Source of the DNA: Actinomycetes bacterium
GTDB lineage: Bacteria; Actinomycetota; Acidimicrobiia; Spongiisociales; SHLN01
Assembly: GCA_024638625.1 (NCBI GenBank)
Contig: JAHEJY010000012.1
Coordinates: 1-39,272, forward strand
DNA: 39,272 nt
Direction: 5' to 3'
The notes beneath the pieces are model-generated. The model was given only the letters and a program-made list of their open reading frames with translations, ran no database searches and was not told the origin of the DNA. Positions within the stretch are counted from its first letter, which is position 1; each line of letters starts with the position of its first letter. Shown one piece after another: positions 6,573 through 38,263 of this stretch. A program made the translations under genes and the position numbers.

Positions 6573-6627
6573 GGAACGAGCGTTCGGCTGCGGGTGCTTG
6601 GTGCGCTGAAGTACCCTTCGTGCTTAC

Positions 6628-6700: not shown

Positions 6701-6705
6701 CCGCG

Positions 6706-6768
6706 GGAACCCTCCGGGTTCCTGGGGAGATTTCCGAGGAACGCTCTGCGTTCCTCGGAAACTCCAGG
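6706..6768 (-). repeat. Double hairpin module of the composite repeat (copy A)
   Basis: There are two strong hairpins just behind tRNA-Thr. The first has stem GGAACCC (6706-6712) and GGGTTCC (6716-6722) with a three-base loop. The second has a perfect 14-bp stem, TTTCCGAGGAACGC (6731-6744) with GCGTTCCTCGGAAA (6748-6761), extended by GGAG/CTCC around a bulged A. Read on the minus strand the order is a GGAGTTT hairpin then a GGAAC hairpin, the order seen at 12607-12647. No T-run follows, so a classical intrinsic terminator is not evident, though transcript-end processing is possible. Confidence 0.75.
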
Positions 6769-6776
6769 TCAACGTT

Positions 6777-6880
6777 GTCCGCAGCCTCGACCAACCGACA
6801 TTGACGCAAAGGGGCTCGATCCATCTGCGCATGCCATCAGAAAATACGGGGCTCCTACACCCAGCGCATGCCATCAGAAA
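6777..6880 (-). repeat. Composite repeat copy A: two tandem units of about 37 bp
   Basis: This stretch holds two tandem units that each begin GGGGCT (6811 and 6848) and contain the exact 17-mer GCGCATGCCATCAGAAA (6827-6843 and 6864-6880). It also holds GTCCGCAGCCTC (6777-6788) and TGACGCAAAGGGGCT (6802-6816). All of these recur on the opposite strand at 12495-12596. No credible gene lies here. Confidence 0.8.
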
Positions 6881-6884
6881 CGGG

Positions 6885-7295
6885 CTAGCCCGATGCCTCG
6901 TTGAGATCGGCGGCCGCGCGGACGAGGTCCCTCAAGGCACCCTCGTCGATGTGGTCGCCCTCGCGGACGTCGATGGCACGCCGAACCTTGCCCTCGAGGC
7001 TTGAGTTGAACAGTCCAGTCGGGTCGGCGAGCGCCGCGCCACGGGCAAAGGTGAGCTTCACTTTGTCTTTGTACGTTTCGCCGGTGCAGATGATCCCGTT
7101 GAATTCCCATACGGGGACTCCCAGCGGGTTCGAGGGTTTTCTCCACTTCACCTCCTCGACCACGTCCGGCACTGCCTGGCGTATCAGCGAGCGAAGTCGA
7201 GCCAGCATCTCGCCGCGCCAGTCATCCAGCTGTTCGATCTGTGCATCGATCAATTTCGTCGGGGACCCGGTTGGGCCGGGTTGTGAGTCAGCCAT
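6885..7295 (-). CDS. DUF1801 (YdhG-like) domain protein
   Basis: The 136-residue product has the DUF1801 pattern: DWRGEMLARLRSLIRQAVPD, then VVEEVKWRKPSNPLGVPVWEF, and the segment GETYKDKVKLTFARGAALAD near the middle. The domain is small and soluble with no established biochemical activity; some relatives are linked to iron-chaperone-like (frataxin-like) folds. The start ATG at 7295 is preceded by AGAGGTG about 7 bases upstream, a good ribosome binding site, so the longer upstream frame to 7514 is rejected. It is transcribed away from the DUF3263 gene. The gene is secure; its function is unknown. Confidence 0.88.
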   Translation of the reverse strand: MADSQPGPTGSPTKLIDAQIEQLDDWRGEMLARLRSLIRQAVPDVVEEVKWRKPSNPLGVPVWEFNGIICTGETYKDKVKLTFARGAALADPTGLFNSSLEGKVRRAIDVREGDHIDEGALRDLVRAAADLNEASG

Positions 7296-7447
7296 CTTGT
7301 TCACCTCTCTTTCGATCGCGGCTGGGTGAGCTGGATGTACACGATACCGGCGGCTGCACCTGTTCGATGCGAGACCGGATCGATTGATGAGCTGGGCCGG
7401 TTCTGTAAAAACACATGCTTGTAATTCATCCTGGTTAACCTCTCGCC

Positions 7448-7708
7448 GTGCTTTCCGAACGCGAGAAACAGGTTCTGGACTTTGAGGGCTCGTGGTGGCT
7501 CTTCCCCGGTCCAAAAGACCGAGCCATCAGAGAACAGTTGACGATGTCGGCCACCCGCTATTACCAAGTATTGCGGCGCCTGGTCGACTCTCCGGCCGCG
7601 TTGCTGCACGCCCCTTTGACCGTGAAACGGCTGCGCAGGCTACGGGAAGAGCGGAAGACCGCCGATATGGTGGAAACCCTCGAACAATGGGATCCGGGGC
7701 ACCGGTAG
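7448..7708 (+). CDS. DUF3263 family protein
   Basis: This 86-residue protein matches DUF3263, a short family found almost only in actinobacteria. The characteristic stretch is LSEREKQVLDFEGSWWLFPG, followed by KDRAIREQLTMSATRYYQVL and LRRLVDSPAALLHAPLTVKR. The arrangement resembles a helix-turn-helix (the REQLTMSATRYYQVLRRL region), so DNA binding is conceivable, but this is inference. The start is the GTG at 7448. No close Shine-Dalgarno is seen. It lies 51 bases before the transporter gene on the same strand. Confidence 0.85.
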   Translation: MLSEREKQVLDFEGSWWLFPGPKDRAIREQLTMSATRYYQVLRRLVDSPAALLHAPLTVKRLRRLREERKTADMVETLEQWDPGHR

Positions 7709-7759
7709 CAGCGCTTCGGTAGTAGCCGCATCGGTAGCAGCTATCGGTAAGCTCGCTCG

Positions 7760-8938
7760 ATGAATGTCGAGAGCATCAAGCGGGTAGGCACGATCTCGTG
7801 GCATCTCATCGGCATCACTGCTTTCTTCGGGATTGTCATCTGGGTCGGATCCCATGTGGCCATCATCTTCCCCCCTCTGGTTTTTGCGGCGGCTCTCATC
7901 TACATCATCAACCCGTTTGTTGATCAGTTTGAGAAGTGGGGCCTTCACCGCTTGCTCGGTTCCTGTCTCTCCTACCTCATGGTCGGAGCCGTGTTCACGA
8001 TCATCGGCATGTTGGTGATCCCCATCATCGCCGACCAGGGGAGCCAGTTCATCGATCGTTTCCCCATGATCGTCGAAGATGCCAGTGCTGCCCTCGAGGA
8101 TCTCACCAGCCAACTCCCGGGCGACGTGGCACTTCCGACCCTCGAAGAAGTTGGCGACTGGCTGGGAAGCTCCGAAAACGCGGGCCTGATCGGCGAGCAG
8201 GTGGGTCGCCTCGGTGAGCTGACGTTGAGTCTGTTCGAATGGCTGATCATCATTCTGCTGGTGCCGGTGCTGGCGCTCTACATCCTGGCCGACCTGCCCA
8301 AGACACGGGAGGCCTTCAAAGGGCTGGTGCCCGCAGAGTGGCGCAACGAGGCGCTTTTCCTCGGGCGCGAGGTGAACAACGTTGTGGGAGGGTTTGTCCG
8401 GGGCCAGCTCCTGGTCGCATTGCTCGTCGGCATTGCGATGAGCCTCGGGTTTCTGGTCATCGATCTTCCCTTCTGGCTCATCATCGGGCTACTCAGCGGC
8501 ATTCTCAACGTGATTCCGTTCGTAGGGCCCTGGGTCGGTGGGCTCCTCGGCGCATTGGCCGGCTTGTCTTCAGGTGACCCATCGAAGGCGCTCTACGCGG
8601 GGCTGATTGCGATCGTCGTACAGCAGCTGGACAATCATGTGGTGAGCCCGCTCGTGATGCGGGTGGTCGTCCGTCTCCATCCGGTGGTGGTCATTGTGGC
8701 ATTGCTTGCAGGTGGGCAGTTGGCCGGCCTGTTGGGGGTTCTCCTGGCGGTTCCCACCGTTGCGGTGATCAAAGTCCTGCTCGGGCATTGGTGGCGCACC
8801 CGGATGCTCGGCCAATCGTGGGAAGAAGCCAAAGAGGCTTTGTTTGAAACCTCAACGTCTCCGGTTGCAGAGCGGATCAAATCACGGTCGGAAGGTGGCT
8901 CCGACGATCGGCCTGTAGCGGAGGATGACAGTGGCTGA
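7760..8938 (+). CDS. AI-2E family transporter (PerM/YdiK-like)
   Basis: This 392-residue protein has the topology of the AI-2E exporter family. There are two N-terminal membrane helices (about 13-48), a third near 70, a soluble segment with a DEGSQFIDRFPM-like region (about 90-155), and a C-terminal block of helices. The family signature is visible as LPFWLIIGLLSGILNVIPFVG followed by VGGLLGALAGL and QQLDNHVVSPLVMR. The C-terminal 40 residues are charged and probably cytoplasmic. Family members export autoinducer-2 or small ions; the substrate here cannot be told. It stands alone after the DUF3263 gene. The ATG at 7760 places the first helix normally. Confidence 0.88.
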   Translation: MNVESIKRVGTISWHLIGITAFFGIVIWVGSHVAIIFPPLVFAAALIYIINPFVDQFEKWGLHRLLGSCLSYLMVGAVFTIIGMLVIPIIADQGSQFIDRFPMIVEDASAALEDLTSQLPGDVALPTLEEVGDWLGSSENAGLIGEQVGRLGELTLSLFEWLIIILLVPVLALYILADLPKTREAFKGLVPAEWRNEALFLGREVNNVVGGFVRGQLLVALLVGIAMSLGFLVIDLPFWLIIGLLSGILNVIPFVGPWVGGLLGALAGLSSGDPSKALYAGLIAIVVQQLDNHVVSPLVMRVVVRLHPVVVIVALLAGGQLAGLLGVLLAVPTVAVIKVLLGHWWRTRMLGQSWEEAKEALFETSTSPVAERIKSRSEGGSDDRPVAEDDSG

Positions 8939-9011
8939 ACGGCAAGTCTCCATCAGCTAGCACAATCCGACAATCACGCGAGAGCGCGAAAACTTCGCCT
9001 AAGGTGTCGCG

Positions 9012-9977
9012 GTGCTCAACATGTTGTTGGGCGCCTTATTCGCGCTGCTGGCGCTTCGCGGATACTGGCGGGGCTTTGTACGGGAGGCCATGGATCTGGC
9101 GGGCGCACTTGCCGGTCTGCTTCTCGCATTTCGATTCAGCTACCCGACCGGCGATGCGCTGAGCGGCGTCATCGGCGCATCGCCGTGGGCTGCACGACTT
9201 GTGTCGGGCGGATTGATCTTCGTCGCCGTCGGTGTGCTGGCATCACTGATCGCCGGGAGGCTGCAGGTACTTGTCGACCTCCCAGGACTGCGCCTCAGCA
9301 ATCGGCTGGCCGGGGCCGGCCTGGCAGTTGCTTGGGGCGGTCTCGTCGCGACTCTCCTGCTGTCGCTCGGCATGCTGGTGCCGATTCGGGCGGTCGAAGA
9401 ATCAATCGATGGCTCATCGGTGGCGACTGCCCTCGTGGAATCCGACAGTCCGACGCAGCGGTTGTTGTCGTTGATATCCGGCGACCGGGCCATCGAGATG
9501 ATGCTCAATCTCCAGGAGGTCATCGGGGCCGAGCGCGTGACCGTCGCCGGCGATGAGTCGTTCACGGTGCCTCCAGTCCCGACCGGCTCCACCAATCGCG
9601 ATGTTGCTTCCGCCTTGGATCTCTTTGATCAGGTCAACCGGGACCGGAGCGCGGCAGGCTTGCCGGTTTTGACCTGGTCGGCGGAGCTCGCAGATGTCGC
9701 GGCCCGTCACGCCGAGGACATGTATGGCACCGGCGTGCTCTCGCATGAGTCCCCGGGCACCGGTTCCCTATCCGATCGGGTGAATTCGGCCGACATCAGC
9801 GCATCGGTCGTCGGCGAGAACTTTGCGCTGGCCGCTGATCCGTCAGACGTGCAAAGGGGACTCATGGCCAGCCCCGCCCATCGGGAAAACCTTCTGTTCC
9901 ACGGATTCGATGCGATTGGTATCGGCGCCATCGAAGGGCCCTACGGCCTCATGGTTGTGCAGGTGTTCAGCGGCTAA
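9012..9977 (+). CDS. CvpA-family membrane domain fused to a CAP/SCP (YkwD-like) domain
   Basis: The protein has 321 residues and two parts. Residues 1-125 form a CvpA-like domain with four membrane helices (ALRGYWRGFVREAMDLAGAL is typical of CvpA). Residues 199-321 form a CAP domain with ALDLFDQVNRDRSAAGLPVL, ARHAEDM (231-237), SHESP (244-248), VGENFA (267-272) and MASPAHRENLLFHGFDAIGI. A linker of about 70 residues joins them. CAP domains usually work outside the membrane; the same plan of CvpA membrane part plus an extracytoplasmic effector exists in the mycobacterial protease MarP. The start is GTG at 9012. The end overlaps the convergent lipoprotein gene by 4 bases. The precise function is unknown. 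Confidence 0.88.
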   Translation: MLNMLLGALFALLALRGYWRGFVREAMDLAGALAGLLLAFRFSYPTGDALSGVIGASPWAARLVSGGLIFVAVGVLASLIAGRLQVLVDLPGLRLSNRLAGAGLAVAWGGLVATLLLSLGMLVPIRAVEESIDGSSVATALVESDSPTQRLLSLISGDRAIEMMLNLQEVIGAERVTVAGDESFTVPPVPTGSTNRDVASALDLFDQVNRDRSAAGLPVLTWSAELADVAARHAEDMYGTGVLSHESPGTGSLSDRVNSADISASVVGENFALAADPSDVQRGLMASPAHRENLLFHGFDAIGIGAIEGPYGLMVVQVFSG

Positions 9978-10699
9978 GCGGCTTTTGGCAGCTCGGGGTC
10001 GCGTTCGGTAACTGCGCCGGTCCGCTCCTCGAGGTATCCAAAGACACTCCGGAGGAACCATCCACCCAGAGTCGACACGATGACGACCATCACGATCCAG
10101 ATCGGAAACGAAGCGGTATCGGTCTCTGCGAACAGCACCTGGCGTTCGGCGTTGCCGATCGACCATGAGACCGAGTCATCGTCTGTGTCGAGGACGCCGT
10201 TTTGGGCTATGACCTCACCCGGGAGATGAACCGACAGCCTCACATCCACTTCGGAATTGATCTCGGAAGCGTCCACTCCATTGAGAACTTCGTCGATTTC
10301 CTCGCCCTCGGAGAATCCGATGAATTCGGTGGTGAAGGCGTGCCGATCGCCGACCTGGATCGAGACTCTGTCGAAAGCGGGCGACAGGGCTTCGAGCATC
10401 CGCTCCATTTCTTCCGGCGAGCGGGCGTTGCCTTGGATATGCCAGGAAAGGTCGGTTGACTCGATGAGTTGCATCGCCGGTTCCGAAAGCACCCGCCGCC
10501 GCAGTTCGAGATCGAAGTCCCGTCCGGTCAATGCGTAGTTGTTGAGGAATTCTTCGTCGGTTTCGATTGCGACATTCAATAAGCCCGACCCATCCTTGTC
10601 GATTCGGGCCGAAACATCAGCATCGATGCGACAACCCGCCAGGAGCACGCAGGCGAGAAGTAGCCACAGTCTTTTGTGGTGCACGTGCACCCCGCTCAT
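9974..10699 (-). CDS. LppM-like lipoprotein (DUF3153-type)
   Basis: This 241-residue protein begins with a lipoprotein signal: positive start, hydrophobic run and lipobox LLAGC, so C23 would be lipidated. The mature part begins RIDADVSARIDKDGSGLLNV, a pattern of the LppM group (Rv2171-like) in which the bulk is an extracytoplasmic domain. A C-terminal membrane helix (about 203-222, FPIWIVMVVIVSTLGGWFLR) and a charged cytoplasmic tail follow. Mycobacterial LppM has been linked to phosphatidylinositol mannoside biology, but this role should not be assumed here. The gene is divergent from the orphan at 10739, with 39 bases between the start codons. Confidence 0.8.
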   Translation of the reverse strand: MSGVHVHHKRLWLLLACVLLAGCRIDADVSARIDKDGSGLLNVAIETDEEFLNNYALTGRDFDLELRRRVLSEPAMQLIESTDLSWHIQGNARSPEEMERMLEALSPAFDRVSIQVGDRHAFTTEFIGFSEGEEIDEVLNGVDASEINSEVDVRLSVHLPGEVIAQNGVLDTDDDSVSWSIGNAERQVLFAETDTASFPIWIVMVVIVSTLGGWFLRSVFGYLEERTGAVTERDPELPKAA

Positions 10700-10738
10700 T
10701 AGATCTACCCTTATTGCTTCGTCGTAGATGGGCGATCA

Positions 10739-11473
10739 ATGAAGCAGTTTGACGAGGCAGGACGTCAATTGGCAGATGCGATGACGACTGCCTTTCGCCC
10801 CTACCTGATGTCGAGAATCCGGGAGCACGATTATCCAGCTCTGGACGACTCGGTGCTAGATGCAGCCGTCACAACCCTGGAGGCCGAGCTGTCAGAGTTG
10901 CTCGCGCAGCCTGCGAGGCTCCAGCGCAGAAGCCCGCTGGAGGTGTTGCAAGGTGCGTGCGCCGGGCCCAATCAAGCATTGGCCGAGTCTGAAATCGAAC
11001 CGCCCGCTCGTGATCCCATGGCGTCGCAGGCGCTGCCGGGGGATATCTACGATCTGGCGCCGGCATCCTCCTCGGAGCTCGGCGAGACCGTATGGCAGGC
11101 TCATCTGGCGTGGGGTCTTGCCAAAGCCGCTGAGATGAAACAACCGGTGGCCGTGTTGCTCACGGGCAACTTGTTGGACCGTTCCCGGCTGGAACCCATC
11201 TTTGGTTCGCATGGCCTTGTGCTGAGAACCACAGACGATCTCGCCGATTTCGAAAAACTGCTGGCGGGTGCGCCGATACAGGTCGTGATTGATCTGTCGC
11301 ACCCGGCCGCGGAGAAGGCGATTACGGCCGCCGGTGACACTCGTGTGATTGCTTTCGGTCCACACGTCGACGAGGAGGCGATGGCCCGGGCGCGCATGTT
11401 GGGGGCCGACCAGGTCCTGACCCGATCATCCTTCTTCCGTCAGACCGGTTGGATGGTGGGTGGATCGGTTTGA
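10739..11473 (+). CDS. Hypothetical protein, possibly with a receiver-like C-terminal half
   Basis: I do not recognise a named family. The 244-residue product has a helical N-terminal third (KQFDEAGRQLADAMTTAFRP through LEAELSELLAQPARLQRR). Its C-terminal half alternates strands and helices: VAVLLTGNLL, FGSHGLVLRTTDDLADF, IQVVIDLSHPAAEKAI, TRVIAFGPHVDEEAMARARM and GADQVLTRSSFF. This order resembles a degenerate response-regulator fold, with the DL at IQVVIDLS where a phospho-acceptor strand would be and GADQVLTR where the last strand lies. That is inference from pattern only. The gene overlaps the convergent plsC end by 34 bases. Confidence 0.75.
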   Translation: MKQFDEAGRQLADAMTTAFRPYLMSRIREHDYPALDDSVLDAAVTTLEAELSELLAQPARLQRRSPLEVLQGACAGPNQALAESEIEPPARDPMASQALPGDIYDLAPASSSELGETVWQAHLAWGLAKAAEMKQPVAVLLTGNLLDRSRLEPIFGSHGLVLRTTDDLADFEKLLAGAPIQVVIDLSHPAAEKAITAAGDTRVIAFGPHVDEEAMARARMLGADQVLTRSSFFRQTGWMVGGSV

Positions 11474-12210
11474 CGCCACTCTTCGAGCTTGGAAAGCATC
11501 CACGACTCCGCCGCCTGGATCAACGCCACCTCGTCGTCAGCTGACCTGTCCATCGGCGCTCCGATCGCCATCTTCACCGTGATTCCGAACGGGACAGGGG
11601 CAAATCGATTGCGTCCAAGTTTCCAGGTGCCGTCGATCGCCCCGGCAAGCACCGGCACGTCCGGTGCAGCACGTAACAGCGCCTTTGCTCCGGCGATGCG
11701 ATACGGCCCCGGCTCACCGTTCTTGGCCCGGGTGCCCTCCGGAAAGATCAGGGCTGCGACTCCGTCTGCCGCAACGCGTTCCCCGAGCTCGGTTATGGCC
11801 GAGATCGCCTGACGGCGGTCTGAGCGATCGATCAGGGCGTTGCCCCCGTATTTCAGGTTGTAAGAAATACTCGGTATGTAGCCGCCGAGTTCGATCTTGG
11901 CGACATACTTCACGAAGTTGGAAAAGAGTTCGGCCCCGAACAGCGGTATATCCATCATGTCCTGATGGTTGGTGAGGATGAGATAAGGCGTGTTGCCCCG
12001 CACGGCGGGATCTCGCTCGACCTCTATCTTCGTTCCGCAAATGCGGAGGGACCTGGCGAGAGACTTCTGAAGGCTGGCCACAACGGTCGACATGGCCCGG
12101 GGTCCGATACGGCGGGCGATGCGCATTGCCCCGTCGTACACCACGATGATCACGCCGAACGCAATGTAGAACGGGATGGTGAATATCCAGTCCCTGATGG
12201 TTTTCAGCAT
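11440..12210 (-). CDS. plsC: 1-acyl-sn-glycerol-3-phosphate acyltransferase
   Basis: PlsC adds the second acyl chain to lysophosphatidic acid to make phosphatidic acid at the inner face of the membrane. The 256-residue protein has an N-terminal hydrophobic helix (about 10-26), the catalytic NHQDMMD motif (81-87; H82, D87) and FPEGTRAKNG (156-165), which binds the glycerol phosphate. The ATG at 12210 lies one base beyond the 3' end of tRNA-Arg on the same strand, so there is no room for a Shine-Dalgarno outside the tRNA. The next methionine (residue 29) would remove the membrane helix. The gene shares a pathway with plsY, pgsA and glpK some 2-4 kb away. Confidence 0.92.
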   Translation of the reverse strand: MLKTIRDWIFTIPFYIAFGVIIVVYDGAMRIARRIGPRAMSTVVASLQKSLARSLRICGTKIEVERDPAVRGNTPYLILTNHQDMMDIPLFGAELFSNFVKYVAKIELGGYIPSISYNLKYGGNALIDRSDRRQAISAITELGERVAADGVAALIFPEGTRAKNGEPGPYRIAGAKALLRAAPDVPVLAGAIDGTWKLGRNRFAPVPFGITVKMAIGAPMDRSADDEVALIQAAESWMLSKLEEWRQTDPPTIQPV

Positions 12211-12211
12211 G

Positions 12212-12284
12212 CGCCCTCGGTAGGACTTGAACCTACGACACCCGGTTTAGGAAACCGGTGCTCTATCCCCTGAGCTACGAGGGC
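12212..12284 (-). tRNA. tRNA-Arg (anticodon CCU)
   Basis: Read on the minus strand the cloverleaf is complete. The acceptor is GCCCTCG with CGAGGGC, the D arm GCTC/GAGC, the anticodon stem CCGGT/ACCGG with loop TTCCTAA, giving anticodon CCT, and the T arm GTAGG/CCTAC with loop TTCAAGT. The discriminator base is G at 12212. CCA is not encoded. The plsC start codon follows after a single base. Confidence 0.97.
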
Positions 12285-12285
12285 G

Positions 12286-12370
12286 GGAACTCAAAAGGGT
12301 TTCCCTGCGGGAAACACTTTTGAATTCCTTGGAAGATTTGGAACAGCATCAGCTGTTCCAAACTTCAAGG
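12286..12370. repeat. Two long intergenic hairpins
   Basis: The first hairpin has inner stem GTTTCCC (12299-12305) with GGGAAAC (12309-12315) and an outer stem TCAAAAG (12291-12297) with CTTTTGA (12317-12323). The second has TTGGAACAGC (12338-12347) with GCTGTTCCAA (12352-12361), and outer CCTT and AAGG arms reaching 12370. These sit just upstream of tRNA-Arg, which is on the minus strand. The 12285-12666 interval contains no gene; it holds only hairpins and repeats. Confidence 0.75.
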
Positions 12371-12410
12371 CGGAAGGCTAACGAGTTGATAGATGAGAGC
12401 ATCACCGCTG

Positions 12411-12449
12411 GGGAGTTGCGAAGCAAACCCCACGGAACGCGAAGGGTTG
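12411..12449 (+). repeat. Degenerate copy of the double hairpin module
   Basis: This stretch reads GGGAGTTGCGAAGCAAACCC and then GGAACGCGAAGGGTTGCC (12434 onward). It follows the same order of a GGAGTT...GCAAACTCC hairpin followed by a GGAAC...GTTCC hairpin found at 12607-12647 and 37112-37149, with mismatches in both stems. It is a decayed or diverged third copy of the module. Confidence 0.6.
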
Positions 12450-12494
12450 CCGCTAACGAACCGTGAGTAGCCCGGTTCAAGTCTCCTTTCTATC

Positions 12495-16235: not shown

Positions 16236-17123
16236 ATGAACGCGGTGATTGTGGAGGGACTCGTAAAGGAATACGGGTCACGCCGCGCAGTGGATGACAT
16301 CGATTTCGAAATCGCGTCGGGGGAAGTGTTTGCGCTGCTGGGGCCGAATGGAGCCGGGAAAACAACCACGGTCGAGATTCTCGAGGGTCATAGATTCCGA
16401 GACGCCGGAGAAGTAGTGGTGCTCGGAATGGATCCCGGCACCGCCGGACCCTATTACCGGCAACGCATCGGCATCGTCCTCCAGTCCAGTGGATTCGAAC
16501 CCAATCTCACTGTCTCCGAATCGGTTTCGATGTATCGGAGTTACTACGAAAACCCGATGGCGGTAGATCAGGTCCTGACGATCGTGGGGTTGCGGGAGCG
16601 CAAGAACGCCCGGGTCAAGACGCTCTCAGGGGGTCAGCAGCGCCGGCTTGATCTGGCGCTAGGTCTCGTCGGAAACCCCGACATGCTGTTTCTGGACGAG
16701 CCCACTACCGGCTTTGATCCATCGGCGCGGCGTCAAGCCTGGGAAGTCGTCAACAACCTGAGATCACTAGGCAAAACCATCTTGTTGACCACTCACTACA
16801 TGGACGAAGCCGAGTATCTGGCAGATACGCTCGCCGTGATTTCAGGCGGCACGATCGTTTCGACCGGATCACCGTCCACCATCGGAGGTTCGGAATACCG
16901 GCGGGCGACCGTTTCATTTCGGGCCACGGGCCGTCCGCCCGGCACCGAGGACTGGAACCATGACGGCGGAATCTTCTCGGTCGTGACAGACGACTCGACG
17001 CGTGTCCTCAACCGGCTCACATCCTGGGCGCTGGCAGAAGGCGTCACGCTCATCGATCTGGAGGTCACGCGACCGAGCCTGGAGGATATCTATCTCTCCC
17101 TCACCGGGGGGAGTGATGTTTAG
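16236..17123 (+). CDS. ABC transporter ATP-binding protein (ABC-2 / drug-exporter type)
   Basis: This 295-residue ATPase carries the standard set: Walker A GPNGAGKTTTVEIL (about residue 33-46), signature LSGGQQRRLDLALG, Walker B MLFLDEPTTGFDP, and the H-loop TTHYMDEAEYLAD. The C-terminal roughly 85 residues after the nucleotide-binding domain match the extra domain of DrrA/CcmA-like exporters. Its stop overlaps the start of the permease gene by 8 bases, so the two form an export system. The substrate is unknown; its position behind plsY, with the desaturase just downstream, makes a lipid or envelope substrate thinkable, but this is inference. Confidence 0.95.
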   Translation: MNAVIVEGLVKEYGSRRAVDDIDFEIASGEVFALLGPNGAGKTTTVEILEGHRFRDAGEVVVLGMDPGTAGPYYRQRIGIVLQSSGFEPNLTVSESVSMYRSYYENPMAVDQVLTIVGLRERKNARVKTLSGGQQRRLDLALGLVGNPDMLFLDEPTTGFDPSARRQAWEVVNNLRSLGKTILLTTHYMDEAEYLADTLAVISGGTIVSTGSPSTIGGSEYRRATVSFRATGRPPGTEDWNHDGGIFSVVTDDSTRVLNRLTSWALAEGVTLIDLEVTRPSLEDIYLSLTGGSDV

Positions 17124-17931
17124 GAGTTTGGCGCAGGTCCTTCGTCAAATCCGCTACGAAAACCGGACATTCTGGCGCAATCCGGCAGCGGCCTTTTTCA
17201 CGATCTTGTTTCCCCTCATGATGTTGCTGATCTTCGCGACCGTCTTTGGCAACGAACCCACAGGCCTCGGGGTGACGACAGCACAGTTCTACGCGCCGGC
17301 CCTCGCGGTGTTCGGTGCGGTATCGGCCGCATACACCAGCCTCGCAATCGGCACGGCGATTGCGAGGGATCAAGGGGTGCTCAAACGGGTCCGCGGAACG
17401 CCCTTGCCACCGTGGGCCTATATGGCGGCGCGAATCTTGTCGTCCGTGTGGTTGGCGGCACTATCGATAGCTCTGATGTTGGCAATCGGCATCCTGCTTT
17501 ATGACCTCGAGATTCGAACGGAGCAGATCCCGACCCTCATCGTCACGTTTGTCGCCGGTGTGGCCGCGTTCGCGGCACTTGGTCTGGCGATCACAGGGGT
17601 GGCTTCGGCAGATTCGGTGCCCGCAATCACGAACGCAACTCTGTTGCCACTGGCATTCATCTCCGGAGTGTTCCTCGGGCCGAGTCTCGAGATGCCCCCG
17701 TGGCTGGATCAGGTGGCTGACCTGTTCCCGCTCAAACATTTTGTCGAACCATTCGTCAACGCGTTCATTCCCGGAACGAGCGCCAGTATTCCGTGGACCG
17801 ACATCGCCTGGTTGGGTGGATGGCTGGCGGTTGGTATCGTTGCAGCAATGCTGTTTTTTCGATGGGATCCCCGTCCCGAGTCAGGGCGGGGAGCCCGCCG
17901 GCGTAACCGCAATGACCGCGTTACGGTCTAA
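17116..17931 (+). CDS. ABC-2 type permease
   Basis: From the ATG at 17116 the protein is 271 residues with six membrane helices and the ABC-2 fold: FRSLAQVLRQIRYENRTFWR, first helix FFTILFPLMMLLIFATVFGN, then ARDQGVLKRVRGTPLPPWAY, the conserved cytoplasmic segment between helices, and LPLAFISGVFLGPSLEMPPW near the end. A GGGGGGAG run stands just before the start as a ribosome binding site; a GTG three bases earlier is an equal alternative. The longer frame beginning at 17002 is inside the ATPase gene and is rejected. It pairs with the ATPase encoded immediately upstream. Confidence 0.9.
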   Translation: MFRSLAQVLRQIRYENRTFWRNPAAAFFTILFPLMMLLIFATVFGNEPTGLGVTTAQFYAPALAVFGAVSAAYTSLAIGTAIARDQGVLKRVRGTPLPPWAYMAARILSSVWLAALSIALMLAIGILLYDLEIRTEQIPTLIVTFVAGVAAFAALGLAITGVASADSVPAITNATLLPLAFISGVFLGPSLEMPPWLDQVADLFPLKHFVEPFVNAFIPGTSASIPWTDIAWLGGWLAVGIVAAMLFFRWDPRPESGRGARRRNRNDRVTV

Positions 17932-29967: not shown

Positions 29968-30693
29968 TCAGGCGAGGTCATCCAGGTAGAGCGGCAACAT
30001 CTCTCGCCAGGTGGGCCAATCGTGATCGTGGCCCTCGGACCATAGATCAACCCGATTGGGGATCATTTGTTGACCGAGGATGTGGGCCATCTTCCACGTC
30101 TCGCCCTGGTCTTCCCAACGGCCCTGGCCCGTCGCAAGAACAATGAAGCGGGATCGTAGAAGCGCGAGCTGGTCGTCATCGGCCAGGCCAGGAAGGAAAT
30201 GGATTGGAGAGCTGAAATAGAAGTCGTCCTCCCAATGCCCTCTGAGCCAGTTGCTCAGGTCGTAGGTACCACTCATACCTATCGCCGCAGAAAAGACGTC
30301 GGGGTGTCGGCACAGGGAAGCGACAGAGTTGAACGCCCCGATGGATGCTCCCGCTGCGACGAGCTCGATGTGATCAGCTCGAGTGTCGAGGCGCACGGCG
30401 GGCACAACCTCTCGATAGATCATCTCGTCGAACCGGTTCTGCAGCCACATCGAATGGCGCGGGTCGTCGCCCTGCAACCAGGATCTTCCGGCGATGCTGT
30501 CAATGCTGAAAACCTTGATCCTCCCTCCTTCAATCAATGGCGCCAGTGCGTCGATGAGACCATGGCGCTCGATCTCTCTTGCGTCCCCGCCTGCAGTGGG
30601 AAACAAGAGCACGGGCCGGCCGAAGTGACCCCATCGCACCAGATGCACCCAGGATTCCACTCGATCCGAATACCAGCGAGTTTCCTCGATCAC
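29968..30693 (-). CDS. Alpha/beta-fold esterase (COG4947-type)
   Basis: This 241-residue protein looks like the small esterases grouped as COG4947. It has the strand WVHLVRWGHFGRPVLLFPTA, the nucleophile elbow GASIGAFN, and the His in SEGHDHDWPTWREMLPLYL. Other conserved stretches are VFSIDSIAGRSWLQG and IGMSGTYDLSNWL. It has no signal peptide, so it is cytoplasmic. Its start overlaps the ATP-grasp stop by 4 bases, so the two are coupled. Together with the Fes-like gene further upstream this gives two esterases around one ligase. The substrate is unknown. Confidence 0.85.
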   Translation of the reverse strand: MIEETRWYSDRVESWVHLVRWGHFGRPVLLFPTAGGDAREIERHGLIDALAPLIEGGRIKVFSIDSIAGRSWLQGDDPRHSMWLQNRFDEMIYREVVPAVRLDTRADHIELVAAGASIGAFNSVASLCRHPDVFSAAIGMSGTYDLSNWLRGHWEDDFYFSSPIHFLPGLADDDQLALLRSRFIVLATGQGRWEDQGETWKMAHILGQQMIPNRVDLWSEGHDHDWPTWREMLPLYLDDLA

Positions 30694-31937
30694 GCGCCTG
30701 TGAGCCGGTCGGATTCGGTCTGGCGCCAGAATTGGATGAGCCCCCAGAAATGGTCTGTGAACCTCTCGACTTCGTGCTCCGGAAACATGCGGGCGACCTT
30801 TGCATGAACCGTATCGCGCGCTCTGTCGGTTCCAAAGTATTCGAGTGTGAGCTCGTCCAGGTCGCCGAGATGGGCGGCGCAGAACTCATCAAAACGATCT
30901 GACTCGAGCCGGCGGCGCGCGATGTTGCCGTACTCGCTCAGCTTGTCGCGATAGTCGAGGCCCGAATCGGCCACGTCGAAGAACTCGTCCCAATCCAGAT
31001 TCAAACGCATCGGGCGGTCGGTGGCTGCGCAGAACAAGGACCAACGGATCTTGGCCTTGACCAGCCACGGCACGTGGAAATGCAGTGACGTGACCTGAGA
31101 ATCAGGACACGGATTGGCGAAATCAATGGGATGGAACACCCCGTTCACGCGCAATGACTCGCACGAATTGAAATCCCATCCGAAGAATGAATTGATGGTG
31201 AGAACCATGTCTGAGAGCAGTTGCCATTCGTCACCATCGACGAAATCGAAATCGACTTTGTAGCGATCGTGGAGTGGAGCTCCGGGATCGTAACGGATCA
31301 CGTTGACCTGCGGTCCTACCGCGAGGGCTCTCACAAAGAGGTCGAATGGTTCGGCGGCCTTCTGCAGATGCATGAGGCGGACGCCCGACTCGTTGTAAGC
31401 ACGCTCGAGGTCCTCACCGTTTTCGATTCGCGACACGCCCACCCAGGCACCGCCGTCGAAGGGTTTAAGGAACTGGGGGTACCCGATCTTGTCGCCGATT
31501 CCGGCGAGATCAAACATCCTCGCGTAACTCTCGAGCGTGATCTGCAGGTCGGTTGTCGGTTCGTAGTGCTTGGGCGGAATCATCCAGGTCTCCGGAACCG
31601 GCAAACCCAGGCGCATCATCGCGGCATAGGAGGTGTGCTTTTCCATGGACTGGATCGAGAACGGGTTATTGAGAACGTACGTACCGTCCATGATGATCGA
31701 CTTTTTGATCCACTCCCGACTGGTGTGATACCAATGTGTGAGGCGGTCCAACACGACGTCATAGCTCGCATCCTGATGAAGTGCATACGGCTCGATCGTC
31801 ACTCGATCGACGGAAAACCTGATCTCGTCGTCGCCGACCCCCGCAACCGGATCGAGTTGGGCGATGATGTCCTCGTAGAACGTGGGCCAGCAAAGGTCGG
31901 CGCCGAGGGAGAGTCCGATCTTACGAGTAGTCGTCAT
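30690..31937 (-). CDS. ATP-grasp-type ligase of unknown substrate
   Basis: I do not recognise a characterised family, but the 415-residue protein has an ATP-grasp arrangement. A pre-ATP-grasp domain begins KIGLSLGADLCWPTFYEDI. After it come MEKHTSYAAMMRLGLPVPET (start of the ATP domain), FLKPFDGGAWVGVSRIENGE (a Lys and glycine loop expected to hold ATP phosphates) and VFHPIDFANPCPDSQ (the Asp and Asn expected to bind magnesium). Such enzymes join a carboxylate to an amine or thiol. The C-terminal 100 residues are helical with several Trp and Arg. It lies between two esterase genes; a 37-base gap precedes it and the next gene overlaps it by 4 bases. Confidence 0.8.
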   Translation of the reverse strand: MTTTRKIGLSLGADLCWPTFYEDIIAQLDPVAGVGDDEIRFSVDRVTIEPYALHQDASYDVVLDRLTHWYHTSREWIKKSIIMDGTYVLNNPFSIQSMEKHTSYAAMMRLGLPVPETWMIPPKHYEPTTDLQITLESYARMFDLAGIGDKIGYPQFLKPFDGGAWVGVSRIENGEDLERAYNESGVRLMHLQKAAEPFDLFVRALAVGPQVNVIRYDPGAPLHDRYKVDFDFVDGDEWQLLSDMVLTINSFFGWDFNSCESLRVNGVFHPIDFANPCPDSQVTSLHFHVPWLVKAKIRWSLFCAATDRPMRLNLDWDEFFDVADSGLDYRDKLSEYGNIARRRLESDRFDEFCAAHLGDLDELTLEYFGTDRARDTVHAKVARMFPEHEVERFTDHFWGLIQFWRQTESDRLTGA

Positions 31938-31974
31938 TCGAGGCCTTTGTGGGGTGGGGATTCGTCAACCGAGA

Positions 31975-33093
31975 TTACCGGCCGAATGCGTGCAGCAGTC
32001 CCCCCCGGAGTCGGTCGCGCCAGTTCTCCCAGTTGTGCCCATCTGGAACTTCCTCGTACTCGACATCGACACCGAGAGTCTGCAAGTGCTGAGCCATACG
32101 CCGATTCTCGGTGATGAGCCCGTCGAACCGTCCACACGACAGGTGCATGCGCTCCGGTAGTTGCCCAGGAGTCTCCAGGAAGGCATCCATGAACTCCACT
32201 ACCGGCCCGAAGACAGGACCCCGACGATGCTTGCCGCCCAACGCCGCGACAAACGAACCCGACTGGAGGATGAGAGCGGAAAAGGTTCCGGGATGTCGCC
32301 ACGCCGCATGGAGCGAGGACACTCCTCCCAGGCTCGCGCCCAGGGCGACGATATGGCTCGCATCGATGGCAGCCTGTTCCCCGACCGCCGGGATGATTTC
32401 GGAAACAACGTGATCTGCTTGCCGGCTGTCACCCGTGTACTCGTGGACGCGATCTTGCGGGTCGCTGAGAATGCACGCCATGGGCGGAATCTCGCGGGCG
32501 GCGATCAGATTGTCGAGAACCGTCGTCAAAGCGGCATACTCGGCATATTCGGATCCATCATGTGCGATGAGCAACGGCAAGGTTCCCGTTCCGGCCACGG
32601 CCGGAAGATATAGGCGTGTTCGGCGAGTGTCGTCGAACACCTCAGAACGGATTGCCATCTCGGACACAGTGCCCTGCGCGACGCCGCTCGTCGGCAGTGA
32701 CCAGGCGGGACGCTGATAATTCGGGCCCGTCACGACAGAGTTCGTGCCGAACGGATCGCGGGCCCGGTTGGGGTTCAAGTGATCGAGAACAAGCCGGCGC
32801 CGCCCGCCTGACTTGACCGAGATCTTGTACTCGATTCGCGACCGTTCGGGCAAGTCGACGGTGAGGGACCAGAGATCAGTCCCGACGTGACGTGAAAAAG
32901 GCGGCAGAGGCCGGAATACGTCCATCCAGTGCCTGAGGGCTACGGCATCGGCCTCGCCGAGATAGAGGAAGGTGGTGGTCCGCCCGTTCTGGAGCGGGGC
33001 ACCGCCAATTGTGTCCAATGCGGATTTGAGCGCATCCGATCCCGAACGGGCGGCGTCGATGATGTGCTGTGGGGGGGAGACCAGGGTATTCAT
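31975..33093 (-). CDS. Enterochelin-esterase-like (Fes-type) hydrolase
   Basis: The 372-residue protein has an N-terminal E-set/CBM48-like region (about residues 35-120) and a Fes-type alpha/beta hydrolase. Visible stretches are PERSRIEYKISVKSGGRRRL, LNPNRARDPFGTNSVVTGPN, LPLLIAHDGSEYAEYAALTT, the nucleophile elbow GASLGG and DGHNWENWRDRLRGGLLHAF with the catalytic His. Fes cleaves ester bonds of siderophores, but here the two-domain plan only suggests that. The ATG at 33093 has AGGAG seven bases ahead, so the upstream frame to 33492 is rejected. No iron-uptake genes are nearby. It is the first gene of the ATP-grasp cassette. Confidence 0.85.
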   Translation of the reverse strand: MNTLVSPPQHIIDAARSGSDALKSALDTIGGAPLQNGRTTTFLYLGEADAVALRHWMDVFRPLPPFSRHVGTDLWSLTVDLPERSRIEYKISVKSGGRRRLVLDHLNPNRARDPFGTNSVVTGPNYQRPAWSLPTSGVAQGTVSEMAIRSEVFDDTRRTRLYLPAVAGTGTLPLLIAHDGSEYAEYAALTTVLDNLIAAREIPPMACILSDPQDRVHEYTGDSRQADHVVSEIIPAVGEQAAIDASHIVALGASLGGVSSLHAAWRHPGTFSALILQSGSFVAALGGKHRRGPVFGPVVEFMDAFLETPGQLPERMHLSCGRFDGLITENRRMAQHLQTLGVDVEYEEVPDGHNWENWRDRLRGGLLHAFGR

Positions 33094-33353
33094 ATGAGTG
33101 CTCCTAGGAGCCGGATCAGCGTACTCACCGATGATCTGATCGAGAGCGATTGGGTGCGGCTTGGCGGAGGGATCCCATGTGAGGCCCAGTCCGATGGTCT
33201 GCGTCAAGAAGTACCTGCAAAGCGATGATTCCTGACCGGGTGAAATGACTATTGGCTCTTGCGACGAACGGCTTGTTGGGGGATTGTTGGTTCGGGACGT
33301 CCGTCGTCTGCCTGGTTCCTGGCAGGAAGCAGACGGCAGAGAAAGTCGGCGAT

Positions 33354-33968
33354 GTGTTAGCGGTAGTGAACAACGGCACCAGCTTCCTGGAGGATCTGAG
33401 GGAGACCCTCGAGCAGCTGGAAATCGGCTATGACCTGATCTCCGGGTCAGGTCAGCTCTCGCTCGAAGCGATGAACTCCTATGCGGGCGCAATTCTCACA
33501 GGTGGCCGGATCCACGTCTACGAGCCTGATCACGTTGACGAGATCGCGCTCAACATTCAATTCATCACAACCGGCGCTATGCCATTGCTCGGCATCTGCC
33601 TGGGCCATCAGCTCATCGCCCACCATTTCGGCGCAACGGTGGAGCCGCTCCCTCGACCGATAGACGAAGTCGCGATCATCGAGCTGGTTGACCCGGGGGA
33701 TCCGCTCTTCGTGGGTCTACCTGGTCACATCCTCGCCCGGATGGCTCACGGCGACGCGGTGACCGCCCTCTCGAGTTCCCTGATGCGGTTGGCGCGTTCA
33801 CCGGTGGGTGAGTATGAGGCGATTCGCCACGTTTCGCGTCCGGTGTACGGCCTCCAGTTCCACCCCGAGGCACATTCGAAGGTAGGGCTCACCATCCTCG
33901 GGAACTTTGCCACCCTCTGCCGCGAGCGGTTCCGAAGCGATCGAATGCCGGTCGAAGCCGAAGGGTGA
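33354..33968 (+). CDS. Class I glutamine amidotransferase (GATase1) domain protein
   Basis: This 204-residue protein is a stand-alone GATase1 domain. It has the nucleophile elbow GICLGHQLIAHHFG (Cys), GLQFHPEAH (the His and Glu of the triad) and ILTGGRIHVY before the oxyanion region. It resembles GuaA N-terminal, anthranilate synthase component II and GMP synthase subunit A; no synthetase partner is encoded beside it. The GTG at 33354 begins MLAVVNNGTSF, the usual first strand; the upstream frame to 33252 lacks it. Such a protein releases ammonia from glutamine for a partner ligase. The ATP-grasp protein is a conceivable partner, but that is speculation, as its gene is on the other strand. 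Confidence 0.87.
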   Translation: MLAVVNNGTSFLEDLRETLEQLEIGYDLISGSGQLSLEAMNSYAGAILTGGRIHVYEPDHVDEIALNIQFITTGAMPLLGICLGHQLIAHHFGATVEPLPRPIDEVAIIELVDPGDPLFVGLPGHILARMAHGDAVTALSSSLMRLARSPVGEYEAIRHVSRPVYGLQFHPEAHSKVGLTILGNFATLCRERFRSDRMPVEAEG

Positions 33969-34132
33969 ATGAAGCTCCGCGTAGGTCTTCGTGAACCAAC
34001 ACGAAGCCTCCTCGGCCACCGGCATCGAAACCGTCCGCCACTGCGCGGGTGCTGTGCATTGCATCGCTAATCTCGTTGCACCGGCGCCGCCCTGCGGAAA
34101 TCGTCGCGAACTATCAACGAGAGGCTTTAGGT

Positions 34133-35194
34133 ATGGGTGACCAGGCAAAGATCCAGTTTCGCTTCCTTTCCCAGGAAGACCTCCTGCGGGCCGGATGTCT
34201 CGATTTCAATCTGGCGATCGATGCCGCAGAAAACGCCTTGCTCGCCTTCCGCGCGGACGAAGTGTTGTTTCCGGAAAAGATCGTGCAGATCTTCAATGAG
34301 GAGACGCAAGAGCGGATCAATTGCCTGCCTGCGACGCTCAAGAAGGACAAGATCTCCGGCATGAAGTGGGTCTCTGTCTTTCCGCCCAATGTTGAACGAT
34401 TCGGCCTGCAAAACCTGACTGCAGTATTCGTGATCTCGGAAATCGAGAAGGGGTTTCCCATCGCCTTCATGGAAGGCACCCTGGCGTCGAACATCCGGGT
34501 GGGAGCGATGGGCGCGCTGGCGGCCAGGCATCTGGCGCCGCCGGACGCCAAGGTCATCGGCTTCATCGGCAGTGGTGAGCAGGCCAAAATGCATTTGCTG
34601 GCGATGAAGACGGTCCGCCCGTCTTTGGAGGAATGTCGCGTCTCGGCGAAGACGACCGCGGAGGAAGCAACGTTCATCGAGCAAATGTCGCAAGTCGTGC
34701 CTGATATGCGTTTCGTGGCCGCCAATACCGATGGTGAACGGGCAATGTCGGAAGCCGACATCCTGGTGACGGCCACCAGCGCCCAGGCGCCGTTACTGAA
34801 AGCCGACTGGATGAAACCGGGCTCGTTCTACAGCCACATCGGCGGGTGGGAAGATGAATACGCGGTGGCGAAACAATGCGAGAAAATCGTCTGCGATGAC
34901 TGGGAAACGGTCAAGCATCGCACGCAGACACTCAGCCGGATGTACAAGGATGGCGAACTCACCGACAGCGATGTCTATGCCGACCTGGATGCGATCGTGG
35001 CAGGCGACAAGCCGGGCCGCGAAAGTCCGAACGAACGCGTGTATTTCAACGCCGTCGGACTCTCCTACGTCGACCTGGCGATTGCGCTGGCCATGTACCG
35101 CCGCTCAGTCCAAGAAGGTGTCGGCGAAGAACTCACGCTGCAAGAGACGACCATCTTCGAACACGCCGAAATCGGCGATTGGGTGAAGATCTAG
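34133..35194 (+). CDS. Ornithine cyclodeaminase / mu-crystallin family protein
   Basis: This 353-residue protein belongs to the OCD/mu-crystallin family of NAD(P)-dependent imino-acid and amino-acid enzymes. The Rossmann-type dinucleotide loop is VIGFIGSGEQAKMHLLAM, the N-terminal substrate region holds KDKISGMKWVSVFPPN, and SEADILVTATSAQAPLLKAD marks the second conserved part. Family members include ornithine cyclodeaminase, alanine dehydrogenase and ketimine reductases, and the longer type here resembles proteins annotated as tyramine oxidase subunit B. GAGAGG stands 8 bases before the ATG at 34133, so this start is well supported. The substrate is unknown. It follows the amidotransferase gene by 164 bases. 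Confidence 0.87.
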   Translation: MGDQAKIQFRFLSQEDLLRAGCLDFNLAIDAAENALLAFRADEVLFPEKIVQIFNEETQERINCLPATLKKDKISGMKWVSVFPPNVERFGLQNLTAVFVISEIEKGFPIAFMEGTLASNIRVGAMGALAARHLAPPDAKVIGFIGSGEQAKMHLLAMKTVRPSLEECRVSAKTTAEEATFIEQMSQVVPDMRFVAANTDGERAMSEADILVTATSAQAPLLKADWMKPGSFYSHIGGWEDEYAVAKQCEKIVCDDWETVKHRTQTLSRMYKDGELTDSDVYADLDAIVAGDKPGRESPNERVYFNAVGLSYVDLAIALAMYRRSVQEGVGEELTLQETTIFEHAEIGDWVKI

Positions 35195-35540: not shown

Positions 35541-37046
35541 GTGACTACCTCGGACTGGCTGTTTGACTTGAAGTTTGTTCGCGCGGGCCTCGCATACATC
35601 GATGAATCGACCCCGCATGTCGTACGGTTGTCGCTCTTGAACAGCCCCTCAATCGAGGGGGCGCTGGCACCGCGCCTGGCGGGCGAGTGGCGGTGGGAGC
35701 CGGCCGACTACCAGGATGGGCACGTGGTCGGCGAACTGGTCTCCACGTTTTCGCCCAGGACGGCGGCCCTTTTTCGTCCGCTCTGGGCACTGAAGAATGC
35801 GGGAGTCGGGGTTGCAGAGTGCGAGATGCTCGACCTCGAGGATGGTATTTCGGAGCGCGCTCTGCAAAAGGCCATCTCGGCATGGGGCGCGATGGCCAAC
35901 AAGGGTCCCCATCGCCGACGCCTCGAGGCATTGGCAGGTGAGCGCCTCCTTGAAATGGCATTGAGGTTGGCAGTCGAGGGTCCGGATCGCCAGCTACATG
36001 CATCGCGGTTTGCGGTGACGTGCATCTCATTCAACACTCCTGGCAGCGAGCGGAGACTTCTGAAACTGGCCGAGGCTTCCGACAAAAAGCTGGCAGAACA
36101 ATGGGTTGCAGCAGCTATCGATAGATCTCGTCTCACTGCTTTGTCCGGAGGAGATCCGGATATTCCACAAGATGCTCTGTCGATATTGATCGGTCGTCCG
36201 GGTTATCTGGGAGAACGGGCAGTTGAGCTCTTGCCCCTGTTATCAGCCCCGCCCGACGAGTCGCTTTTGGAGATCCTGTGTACGGCCTCGCGTGGCGACG
36301 ACAGCCGTGCTGAGGCCGCGCTCACCGCAATGATCTCGGCACCGGCCACAGAAAGAATCAAGGATGCATTGCGCGATGCTCTTGACTCCTCATCCACGAG
36401 GCGACGGGCGGGCGCATTACCGCCGTTTGCGGCGCACTGGCCGGATGAAGCGCGACCATACTGGATTGAATTCCTTGCCTCGCGCTCAGGGCCGTTGCGA
36501 GAAGTTGCCGAGGTTGTTATTCCCCGACGTGGAGGGCCGCAGGACATTCCCCTGGTCGCTGCCCACGTCTCCAAACTGATTCGAAGCAAGCATCCGACCG
36601 TTGTGTATGTTCCACCCCGCGGATCTGAGTTGATCTCGATGCTGGTGGCGAATAGCCGGCACCCGGATGCTCAACGTGCCTTGGATGACGTGGCCTCCCG
36701 CTGGAATCGTCTCTATCCCGAATTGCGAGCCTGGCTGGAAACCAACCATGGTTCGATCTCGCCGGTGGGCCGAACGGTTCCGCCCTCGGGGATCGACTCG
36801 GAGCCGGAGGAGCGACTCATGTGGCCACCTCCCGAAGTGGAGTTGGAGTCGGATGGCGTACTCGTGTGGTACGAATACACCGACATGTTCGAAACGAGGG
36901 AGTCGTTCGAAAGGTTGATGGGGATGCATTCGGATGTCGAGCTGATCGACGGTGACCGTGAATGGTTGAGATTCACAACGAACGCTGATGATCCGCGTGC
37001 GCTCGTTCTCGATCTCTGGGAGCGAGCCGGTGGTTCTCGAGCCTGA
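35541..37046 (+). CDS. Hypothetical protein with helical repeats
   Basis: I do not recognise a family. The 501-residue product has no signal peptide or membrane helix. Its first half mentions SDWLFDLKFVRAGLAYIDES and LWALKNAGVGVAECEMLDLE. The middle (about 130-400) is a run of amphipathic helices like HEAT or ARM repeats, such as LLEMALRLAVEGPDRQLHAS, LLEILCTASRGDDSRAEAAL and RIKDALRDALDSSSTRRRAG. The end has an acidic, aromatic stretch (VLVWYEYTDMFETRESFERL). A scaffold or protein-binding role is conceivable. It starts at GTG 35541, 54 bases after the tandem repeat. Codon use looks normal for the window. Confidence 0.75.
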   Translation: MTTSDWLFDLKFVRAGLAYIDESTPHVVRLSLLNSPSIEGALAPRLAGEWRWEPADYQDGHVVGELVSTFSPRTAALFRPLWALKNAGVGVAECEMLDLEDGISERALQKAISAWGAMANKGPHRRRLEALAGERLLEMALRLAVEGPDRQLHASRFAVTCISFNTPGSERRLLKLAEASDKKLAEQWVAAAIDRSRLTALSGGDPDIPQDALSILIGRPGYLGERAVELLPLLSAPPDESLLEILCTASRGDDSRAEAALTAMISAPATERIKDALRDALDSSSTRRRAGALPPFAAHWPDEARPYWIEFLASRSGPLREVAEVVIPRRGGPQDIPLVAAHVSKLIRSKHPTVVYVPPRGSELISMLVANSRHPDAQRALDDVASRWNRLYPELRAWLETNHGSISPVGRTVPPSGIDSEPEERLMWPPPEVELESDGVLVWYEYTDMFETRESFERLMGMHSDVELIDGDREWLRFTTNADDPRALVLDLWERAGGSRA

Positions 37047-37149: not shown

Positions 37150-37324
37150 CTTGCGCTTGGCCCGTAGGGCCAGACCGGTGTGGAGGTCGTCAGATGACTT
37201 TGAACCTTCTTTGAGCGGCGACCGTCCAACCAAAAGCGACTTTGTTTTTTCGCTCGCGCTTCATACCGATAGGGGTCCCGCGTTCGGTCGATTCCTGTAC
37301 GTTGGAGGTCGTGAGGCAAGTGCG

Positions 37325-38263
37325 ATGGATGCGGTGACTCAACTCGGGCAGACTCGGAGAGGGCCGCCACTCAGTAGGCATGTCGCAGCGGTCAGCTTGA
37401 CCGCCGGATTGATGTTCCTCTTTTTCTGGCTCGACGGTGAGCGGATCCTGCCGCTTTCGCACGCCGTACTTGCCGACACGTCGCTCGCCCTTCTATGCCT
37501 GATACTGATGCTTGGTGCGCTAGCGCGTTTTGTACCCAGATTGAGACCTGTGGTGCCGTGGGGCCGCGAACTCGGCATCGGCATGTTTGTTACAGCGGGT
37601 CTCCATGTCGCCATACTCCTCGATCCGGAATTCTTCTCGGGTCTGATTCCGGAGATCGGCGAGAAGACCAACACTATGTGGACCGCTGCGTGGTGGATAG
37701 GTCTACTGGCGTTTGGGTATGCACTGGTTCTCGCTGCTACATCTAACGATTGGTCTCAGCGGATGCTCGGTCGGGGCTGGAAGTTCGTGCAGCGGCAGGC
37801 GTACACGCTGTTCGTCCTGACCTGGCTACACACAGCGGCATACGTCCTGCTTGGTGCGGGGCACGGCGTGTTTCTCGCTGTCTGGTTCTTCTGGAGTTTG
37901 ACTGCGGCGGCGGTGTTGTCCCAGCTCGCCGGTTTTATCCACACAGTGGGAGCGGTACGAGGACCGTCCCCGTACCGAGTTCCACCCAAGACTGATGCAA
38001 AGGGTTCTGCAGCTGTGCCGTCGGGCACGCCACGGTGGTTCGGAGTCATGGCACTCTGGGGTGCTGTCATCATCGGTTCCTGGCTACTCGCGCATGTCGA
38101 GTCGACTGAGGAGCGGCAAGTCGCCATCCTTTGCGAAAGATACGCAGAACTGCGTGAATTGCCGATGGCCGAGATCCGGGACGAGCTAATGGAGGTCGCA
38201 CCGGAAGACGTTGGCCCTGGGGCCCCACTCGGAGAATGGCTTGAACGGTGTGAGGATGGATGA
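37325..38263 (+). CDS. Ferric-reductase-like transmembrane domain protein
   Basis: The 312-residue membrane protein contains the ferric reductase-like domain (PF01794 type), as in YedZ/MsrQ and NADPH oxidases: GRELGIGMFVTAGLHVAILL, then LAATSNDWSQRMLGRGWKFV and RQAYTLFVLTWLHTAAYVLL. Its histidines (GLH, WLH) are the kind that bind heme. About seven helices are predicted. The FAD/NAD domain found in full ferric reductases is absent; the last 70 residues are soluble and acidic (ERYAELRELPMAEIRDELME). The ATG at 37325 has GAGG eight bases ahead; the frame is open back to 37151 but that part is not conserved. The electron donor and acceptor are unknown. Confidence 0.8.
   Translation: MDAVTQLGQTRRGPPLSRHVAAVSLTAGLMFLFFWLDGERILPLSHAVLADTSLALLCLILMLGALARFVPRLRPVVPWGRELGIGMFVTAGLHVAILLDPEFFSGLIPEIGEKTNTMWTAAWWIGLLAFGYALVLAATSNDWSQRMLGRGWKFVQRQAYTLFVLTWLHTAAYVLLGAGHGVFLAVWFFWSLTAAAVLSQLAGFIHTVGAVRGPSPYRVPPKTDAKGSAAVPSGTPRWFGVMALWGAVIIGSWLLAHVESTEERQVAILCERYAELRELPMAEIRDELMEVAPEDVGPGAPLGEWLERCEDG

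Follow-up and report, generated by a model that had tools for sequence, protein, structure and literature searches.

A conserved trio of predicted ATP-grasp ligase and esterase genes, found across seven bacterial phyla and often linked to glycogen genes

ATP-grasp enzymes can form esters besides amides, as graspetide synthetases do. The nearest precedent that we found for the gene combination described here is the ATP-grasp/esterase fusion of the metazoan C7orf58 type, in which an ATP-grasp domain is joined to a PC-esterase and which is predicted to modify surface polymers (PMC2824669). Its resemblance to our three-gene cassette lies in the combination of an amino-acid-ligase ATP-grasp and an ester hydrolase, but it is a metazoan fusion, its esterase is SGNH-like and unrelated, and its ligase is TTL-like (PMC2824669). 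Our search of the open-access literature found no description of the trio or of the larger module around it, an earlier mention in Iyer et al. 2009 (amidoligases) being possible, and the terms ATP-grasp and esterase are absent from the accessible portion of a review from 2024 on prokaryotic alpha-glucan enzymes. The system would sit among the ATP-grasp amidoligase pathways; each enzyme class is known, and the constellation is apparently undescribed.

The trio was analyzed in a window of 39,272 nucleotides, by which we mean the whole stretch of DNA studied, from an Acidimicrobiia genome (contig JAHEJY010000012.1 of assembly GCA_024638625.1). The three genes, which we call FES, GRASP and EST (Table 1), are separated by a 37-base gap between FES and GRASP and joined by a 4-base overlap between GRASP and EST, in agreement with the minus-strand spacing given by an earlier, sequence-only reading of this DNA. 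Each of them is one intact open frame. Comparison with the closest relative, locus L051 of an Acidimicrobiia MAG, revealed amino-acid identities of 75% for FES, 87% for GRASP and 82% for EST, with pN/pS values of 0.21, 0.11 and 0.16, respectively, indicating that all three are genuine genes selected as proteins; they are under purifying selection. No signal-peptide-like N-terminus was seen by eye in FES, GRASP or EST, as had been said before of the two hydrolases.

Table 1. Coordinates of the trio, of other features in the window and of related features at other loci
Feature	Position	Strand	Remarks
FES	31975-33093	minus	372 aa; ATG start; AGGAG just 5' of start
GRASP	30690-31937	minus	415 aa; predicted ATP-grasp ligase
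EST	29968-30693	minus	241 aa; GTG start overlaps GRASP stop
FES N-terminal E-set/CBM48-like beta domain	about residues 34-135		from the model
FES C-terminal alpha/beta-hydrolase (CE1/Fes-like) domain			candidate triad S254, D324, H353 (alignments A2/A8)
ABC-2-type ATPase/permease pair	16236-17931	plus	homologous to the pair at second-clade cassettes
Class-I GATase-like gene	33252-33968
Ornithine-cyclodeaminase-family gene	34049-35194	plus	best NCBIfam match SbnB, 188.5 versus 326.9 bits, far below cut-off
501-aa open frame	35541-37046	plus	no Pfam or NCBIfam match
Ferric-reductase-like membrane protein	37151-38263
CBS-domain protein, L096	9904-11973
CBS-domain protein, L118	8618-10576
CBS-domain protein, L083, L086, L090, L105, L119
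GRASP in two overlapping frames, L050 (G201)	3771-5010
GlgA locus unlinked to the trio, L146 (G306)	6262-12473

FES matched PF00756 at 73.8 bits (cut-off 22), and its model (pLDDT 94) comprises a beta-sandwich and an alpha/beta-hydrolase. A whole-chain Foldseek search of this model against the PDB returned CBM48+CE1 (feruloyl esterase) structures at E values of about 1e-24 and Fes equally. FES lies above the CE1/PF00756 gathering score and has a plausible candidate triad; its model is that of a CBM48/CE1-type esterase. It resembles the CBM48-CE1 feruloyl esterases and the enterochelin esterases Fes and IroE alike in its two-domain architecture and in an alpha/beta-hydrolase fold with the candidate triad. 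Plant-fibre CBM48-CE1 esterases are secreted with a signal peptide, whereas FES has none that could be seen. Against the enterochelin-esterase equivalog PRK10439, FES scored 92.4 bits and did not reach the cut-off of 222; siderophore genes, expected in Fes systems, were not recognised among the families recurrently linked to the trio, and on these two grounds an identity as siderophore esterase was ruled out. The earlier label "Fes-like" therefore holds for the fold and a weak sequence similarity, but not for a siderophore esterase. Among the FES members, CBM_48 was matched in 4 of 43 and CBM_20 in 12 of 43, with weak E-values only, and weak AMPK-CBM matches also occurred in some. The N-terminal domain equally belongs to the Enterochelin_N type, so that glucan binding does not follow from the fold alone.

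GRASP reaches no Pfam or NCBIfam cut-off, scoring 17.7 bits against Dala_Dala_lig_C (cut-off 24, E = 0.0026) and 20.5 bits against rimK_fam (cut-off 143). A profile-based model (pLDDT 81.6) carries a C-terminal helical extension of about 100 residues, and a Foldseek search of the PDB with it found RimK, ArgX and Ddl at E values in the range of 1e-9 to 1e-8, reaching down to 4e-9, with MdnC-type structures also among the fold matches. K100, K158 and the candidate metal ligands E260, D272 and N275 are invariant in an alignment of 20 sequences (A1). Sequence and model together assign GRASP to the ATP-grasp superfamily. With RimK/LysX/ArgX and the D-Ala-D-Ala ligases it shares the ATP-grasp core and the conserved lysine and acidic or asparagine positions, but unlike RimK and Ddl it lies below the family cut-offs, has no curated family and bears the helical extension. 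EST matched PF00756 weakly (28.1 bits, cut-off 22), and its profile aligned with that of FES at a probability of 97.3% (E = 2e-11); the positions of its candidate triad, S117, E194 and H224, are conserved in alignment A3. EST is, as judged from these comparisons, a putative single-domain alpha/beta-hydrolase akin to the FES catalytic domain.

The genes flanking the trio in the window do not recur beside it in the other genera compared and are common only to the near relative L051. The GATase-like gene and, beyond it, the ornithine-cyclodeaminase-like gene, which diverges from the trio, were both ruled out as partners because neither is recurrent with the trio in those genera; L051 ends before that side. 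The ABC-2-type pair in the window was likewise ruled out as the transporter of the cassette, being unlinked, 12 kb away and on the opposite strand. The 501-aa open frame of the window adjoins the gene for a ferric-reductase-like membrane protein. PADLOC models gave no match for the trio or for the partner families X7 and G2a-c described below, and an anti-phage defence system was rejected as a reading; plasmid-borne spread was rejected likewise, tblastn against 72,556 plasmids having given no match.

Relatives of GRASP were sought in 84,980 genomes, one per species, and at least 560 were found. We analyzed the loci of the best 80, which, being the most similar matches, do not sample the family at random. 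They span Actinomycetota, Acidobacteriota, Myxococcota, Planctomycetota, Pseudomonadota, Gemmatimonadota and Eiseniibacteriota, and all belong to the clade of the window (type A). The order FES-GRASP-EST, with the three genes adjacent as in the window, occurs in 50 of these 80 loci and in all seven phyla; one esterase adjoins GRASP in 21 loci and none in 9, some of which lie at contig ends. At L050, GRASP is split between two overlapping frames, a frameshift, a pseudogene or an assembly error. Within the window's phylum, GRASP was found in 26 of 297 genomes, and this set contains a second, deeply separated actinobacterial clade of 18 sequences (support 100/100) that mostly keeps the order FES-EST-GRASP. 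In six second-clade loci an ABC-2-type ATPase and permease lie directly upstream of the cassette; no transporter pair directly adjoins the type-A trio. The sequence-only reading had proposed a functional unit of unusual composition, to be checked by searching other genomes for the triple and its order and to be abandoned if most relatives carried the ligase without the esterases and in no conserved order. Both esterases adjoin GRASP in 50 of the 80 loci, so the unit stands, and the same triple recurs in another order in the second clade. There is good support for the trio as one functional unit.

The trio usually stands within a larger module, whose members were found by unsupervised clustering of the open frames of at least 90 aa in the loci followed by profile searches; no recurrent family of short frames, as a graspetide precursor-peptide gene would be, was noticed. 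A family named X7 is present in 45 of the 80 loci, in 40 of them as the gene immediately upstream of FES, and the families G2a, G2b and G2c occur in 36, 27 and 36 loci, respectively. X7 passes PF03575 (peptidase S51) just over the gathering score (26 versus 23.9 bits) and carries the conserved serine motif WSAGAM, two features shared with cyanophycinase and other S51 peptidases; a search of its sequence against the PDB gave no S51 match. In contrast to cyanophycinase systems, no cyanophycin synthetase was recognised among the families linked to the trio. G2a-c fall in ATP-grasp families of Pfam, G2b just below the cut-off, and G2a has a weak, sub-threshold match to LAL_C2, the C-terminal domain of L-amino-acid ligases. 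These matches liken them to ligases of the BacD type, from which the module differs in having up to three paralogues (G2a-c) adjoining GRASP and a motif of their own, E-(I/V)-G-x-R-P-P-G. The sequence-only reading had noted no peptide-synthesis genes nearby, which is correct for the window but does not extend to most relatives, where the trio is accompanied by an S51-like peptidase and additional ATP-grasp ligases, and often by glycogen genes. In cultured Nannocystis species (L071 and L075), a duplicated G2c pair lies inside the module.

GlgA, the TIGR02095-type bacterial glycogen synthase, lies within 8 kb in 25 of the 80 loci, against about 1% per locus expected by chance on a rough estimate with two copies in 4 Mb, so that coincidence is untenable. 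GlgC, GlgP, GlgB, GlgX, GH57 and a CBS-domain protein are less frequent neighbours. The CBS-domain protein, of about 620-680 aa, has two CBS domains, and its N-terminal portion resembles, by eye only, a glutamate-cysteine-ligase (GCS2) domain; it adjoins the module in 8 loci. A genome of the same order as that of the window (G178, loci L031/L060) unites GlgP, GH57, GlgB, GRASP, EST, GlgA, GlgC, FES, X7, G2b and G2a in one island of 16 kb.

Co-occurrence across genomes extended these linkages. Strong X7 matches were found in 4 of the 297 phylum genomes, and each of these 4 is one of the 26 with GRASP (P = 5e-5). Two of them, G086 and G184, hold X7 far from GRASP, at a locus that also contains FES, EST and at least one G2 gene. 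Of 33 genomes selected for having no X7 near GRASP, 15 carry it elsewhere. All 22 type-A carriers tested gave a GlgA match, which was above the cut-off in 20 and mostly unlinked, as in the window genome. At the level of Acidimicrobiia, 10 of 10 carriers have GlgA against 8 of 25 non-carriers (Fisher p = 2e-4), or 9 of 10 when one partial match is left out (p = 0.002); the compared genomes include close relatives and are not independent, so these p-values overstate the evidence. In G306, which has the trio alone, an unlinked GlgA locus holds a second copy of FES besides G2c, G2a and G2b. Not all carriers show the glycogen link: at least seven second-clade carriers (family f15) have neither a TIGR02095 (GlgA) nor a TIGR02149 (GlgM-type) glycogen synthase, so the core chemistry of the trio cannot need those enzymes everywhere. 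Second-clade carriers with X7 (G076, G086 and G184) have a TIGR02149-type synthase. A minimal form, the trio only, is kept in several Acidimicrobiia, and the window genome apparently has this form: its single glycogen synthase is on another contig, and a search for X7 and a true G2b found neither in this 86.5% complete genome, so the product there may be simpler.

The data show the gene content with its conservation, linkage and co-occurrence, the fold classes and the conserved active-site positions; from these we infer catalytic activities, an ester or amide chemistry and glucan docking that would fit together as follows. A cytosolic ligase-hydrolase pathway would have the trio as its conserved core, and in it GRASP would use ATP to turn a carboxylate into an acyl-phosphate and pass the acyl group to an amine, or to a hydroxyl as graspetide ATP-grasps do. 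FES and EST would cleave ester bonds in the product or an intermediate, as a make-and-break or proof-reading pair; since ATP-grasp enzymes are able to form esters, the ligase and the esterases could share one bond as target. It is plausible, as the sequence-only reading predicted, that the trio makes and cleaves one amide or ester product. In most relatives the L-amino-acid-ligase-like G2a, G2b and G2c and the peptidase-like X7 would join in, and with their participation the product would most likely be a short conjugate of aminoacyl or peptidyl type. In the type-A lineage the pathway would be tied to the metabolism of alpha-glucan (glycogen), and the CBM48-like domain may let FES dock on a carbohydrate acceptor. 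We give this reading as a whole, an aminoacyl- or peptidyl-type conjugate coupled to alpha-glucan metabolism in type A, an even chance of being right.

A free small molecule, such as a short peptide, an osmolyte or an exported metabolite, is a tentative but serious alternative, in which the linkage to glycogen genes would reflect shared regulation of reserves rather than reactions on the glucan itself, and FES and EST would trim an ester intermediate. The ABC-2-type genes upstream of six second-clade cassettes suggest export, the f15 carriers do without both glycogen-synthase families tested, and four ATP-grasps with an S51-like peptidase fit a peptide or peptide reserve as well. This explanation leaves aside the CBM48-like module of FES, however, and has to accommodate GlgA in every type-A carrier tested, unlinked ones included, and a type-A trio that no transporter pair directly adjoins.

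Repair or detoxification, with the esterases stripping unwanted acyl adducts off sugars or glucans and the ligase recapturing the acid as an amide, appears improbable: the two related hydrolases per ligase of the minimal form, and its persistence in several Acidimicrobiia, would suit such a role, but the three extra ligases and the peptidase of the full module would go unexplained. That the genes are chance neighbours or a fortuitous operon with no joint function is scarcely credible. The patchy distribution of GRASP (26 of 297 phylum genomes) and the 9 of 80 loci where no esterase adjoins it could be read that way, but the idea is refuted by the adjacency of the three families in two deep clades, in differing orders and in seven phyla.

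The preferred reading, a cytosolic ligase-hydrolase pathway, concerns a widespread module of conserved order, often tied to glycogen synthase, for which we found no assigned function. With eight co-varying genes now named, its product should be directly findable in cultured carriers (Nannocystis, Aliiruegeria and Oceanibium). Of these, Nannocystis pusilla and N. poenicansa have the fuller module, and Aliiruegeria and Oceanibium have FES-GRASP-EST. A more specific version, rather unlikely in our estimation, is that in at least seven phyla up to four ATP-grasp ligases attach amino acids or short peptides to glycogen or a glucan-derived acceptor, a decoration that a glucan-binding esterase, a second esterase and the S51-like peptidase would take off again. 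If true, glycogen decoration would be a new covalent modification of a storage polysaccharide.
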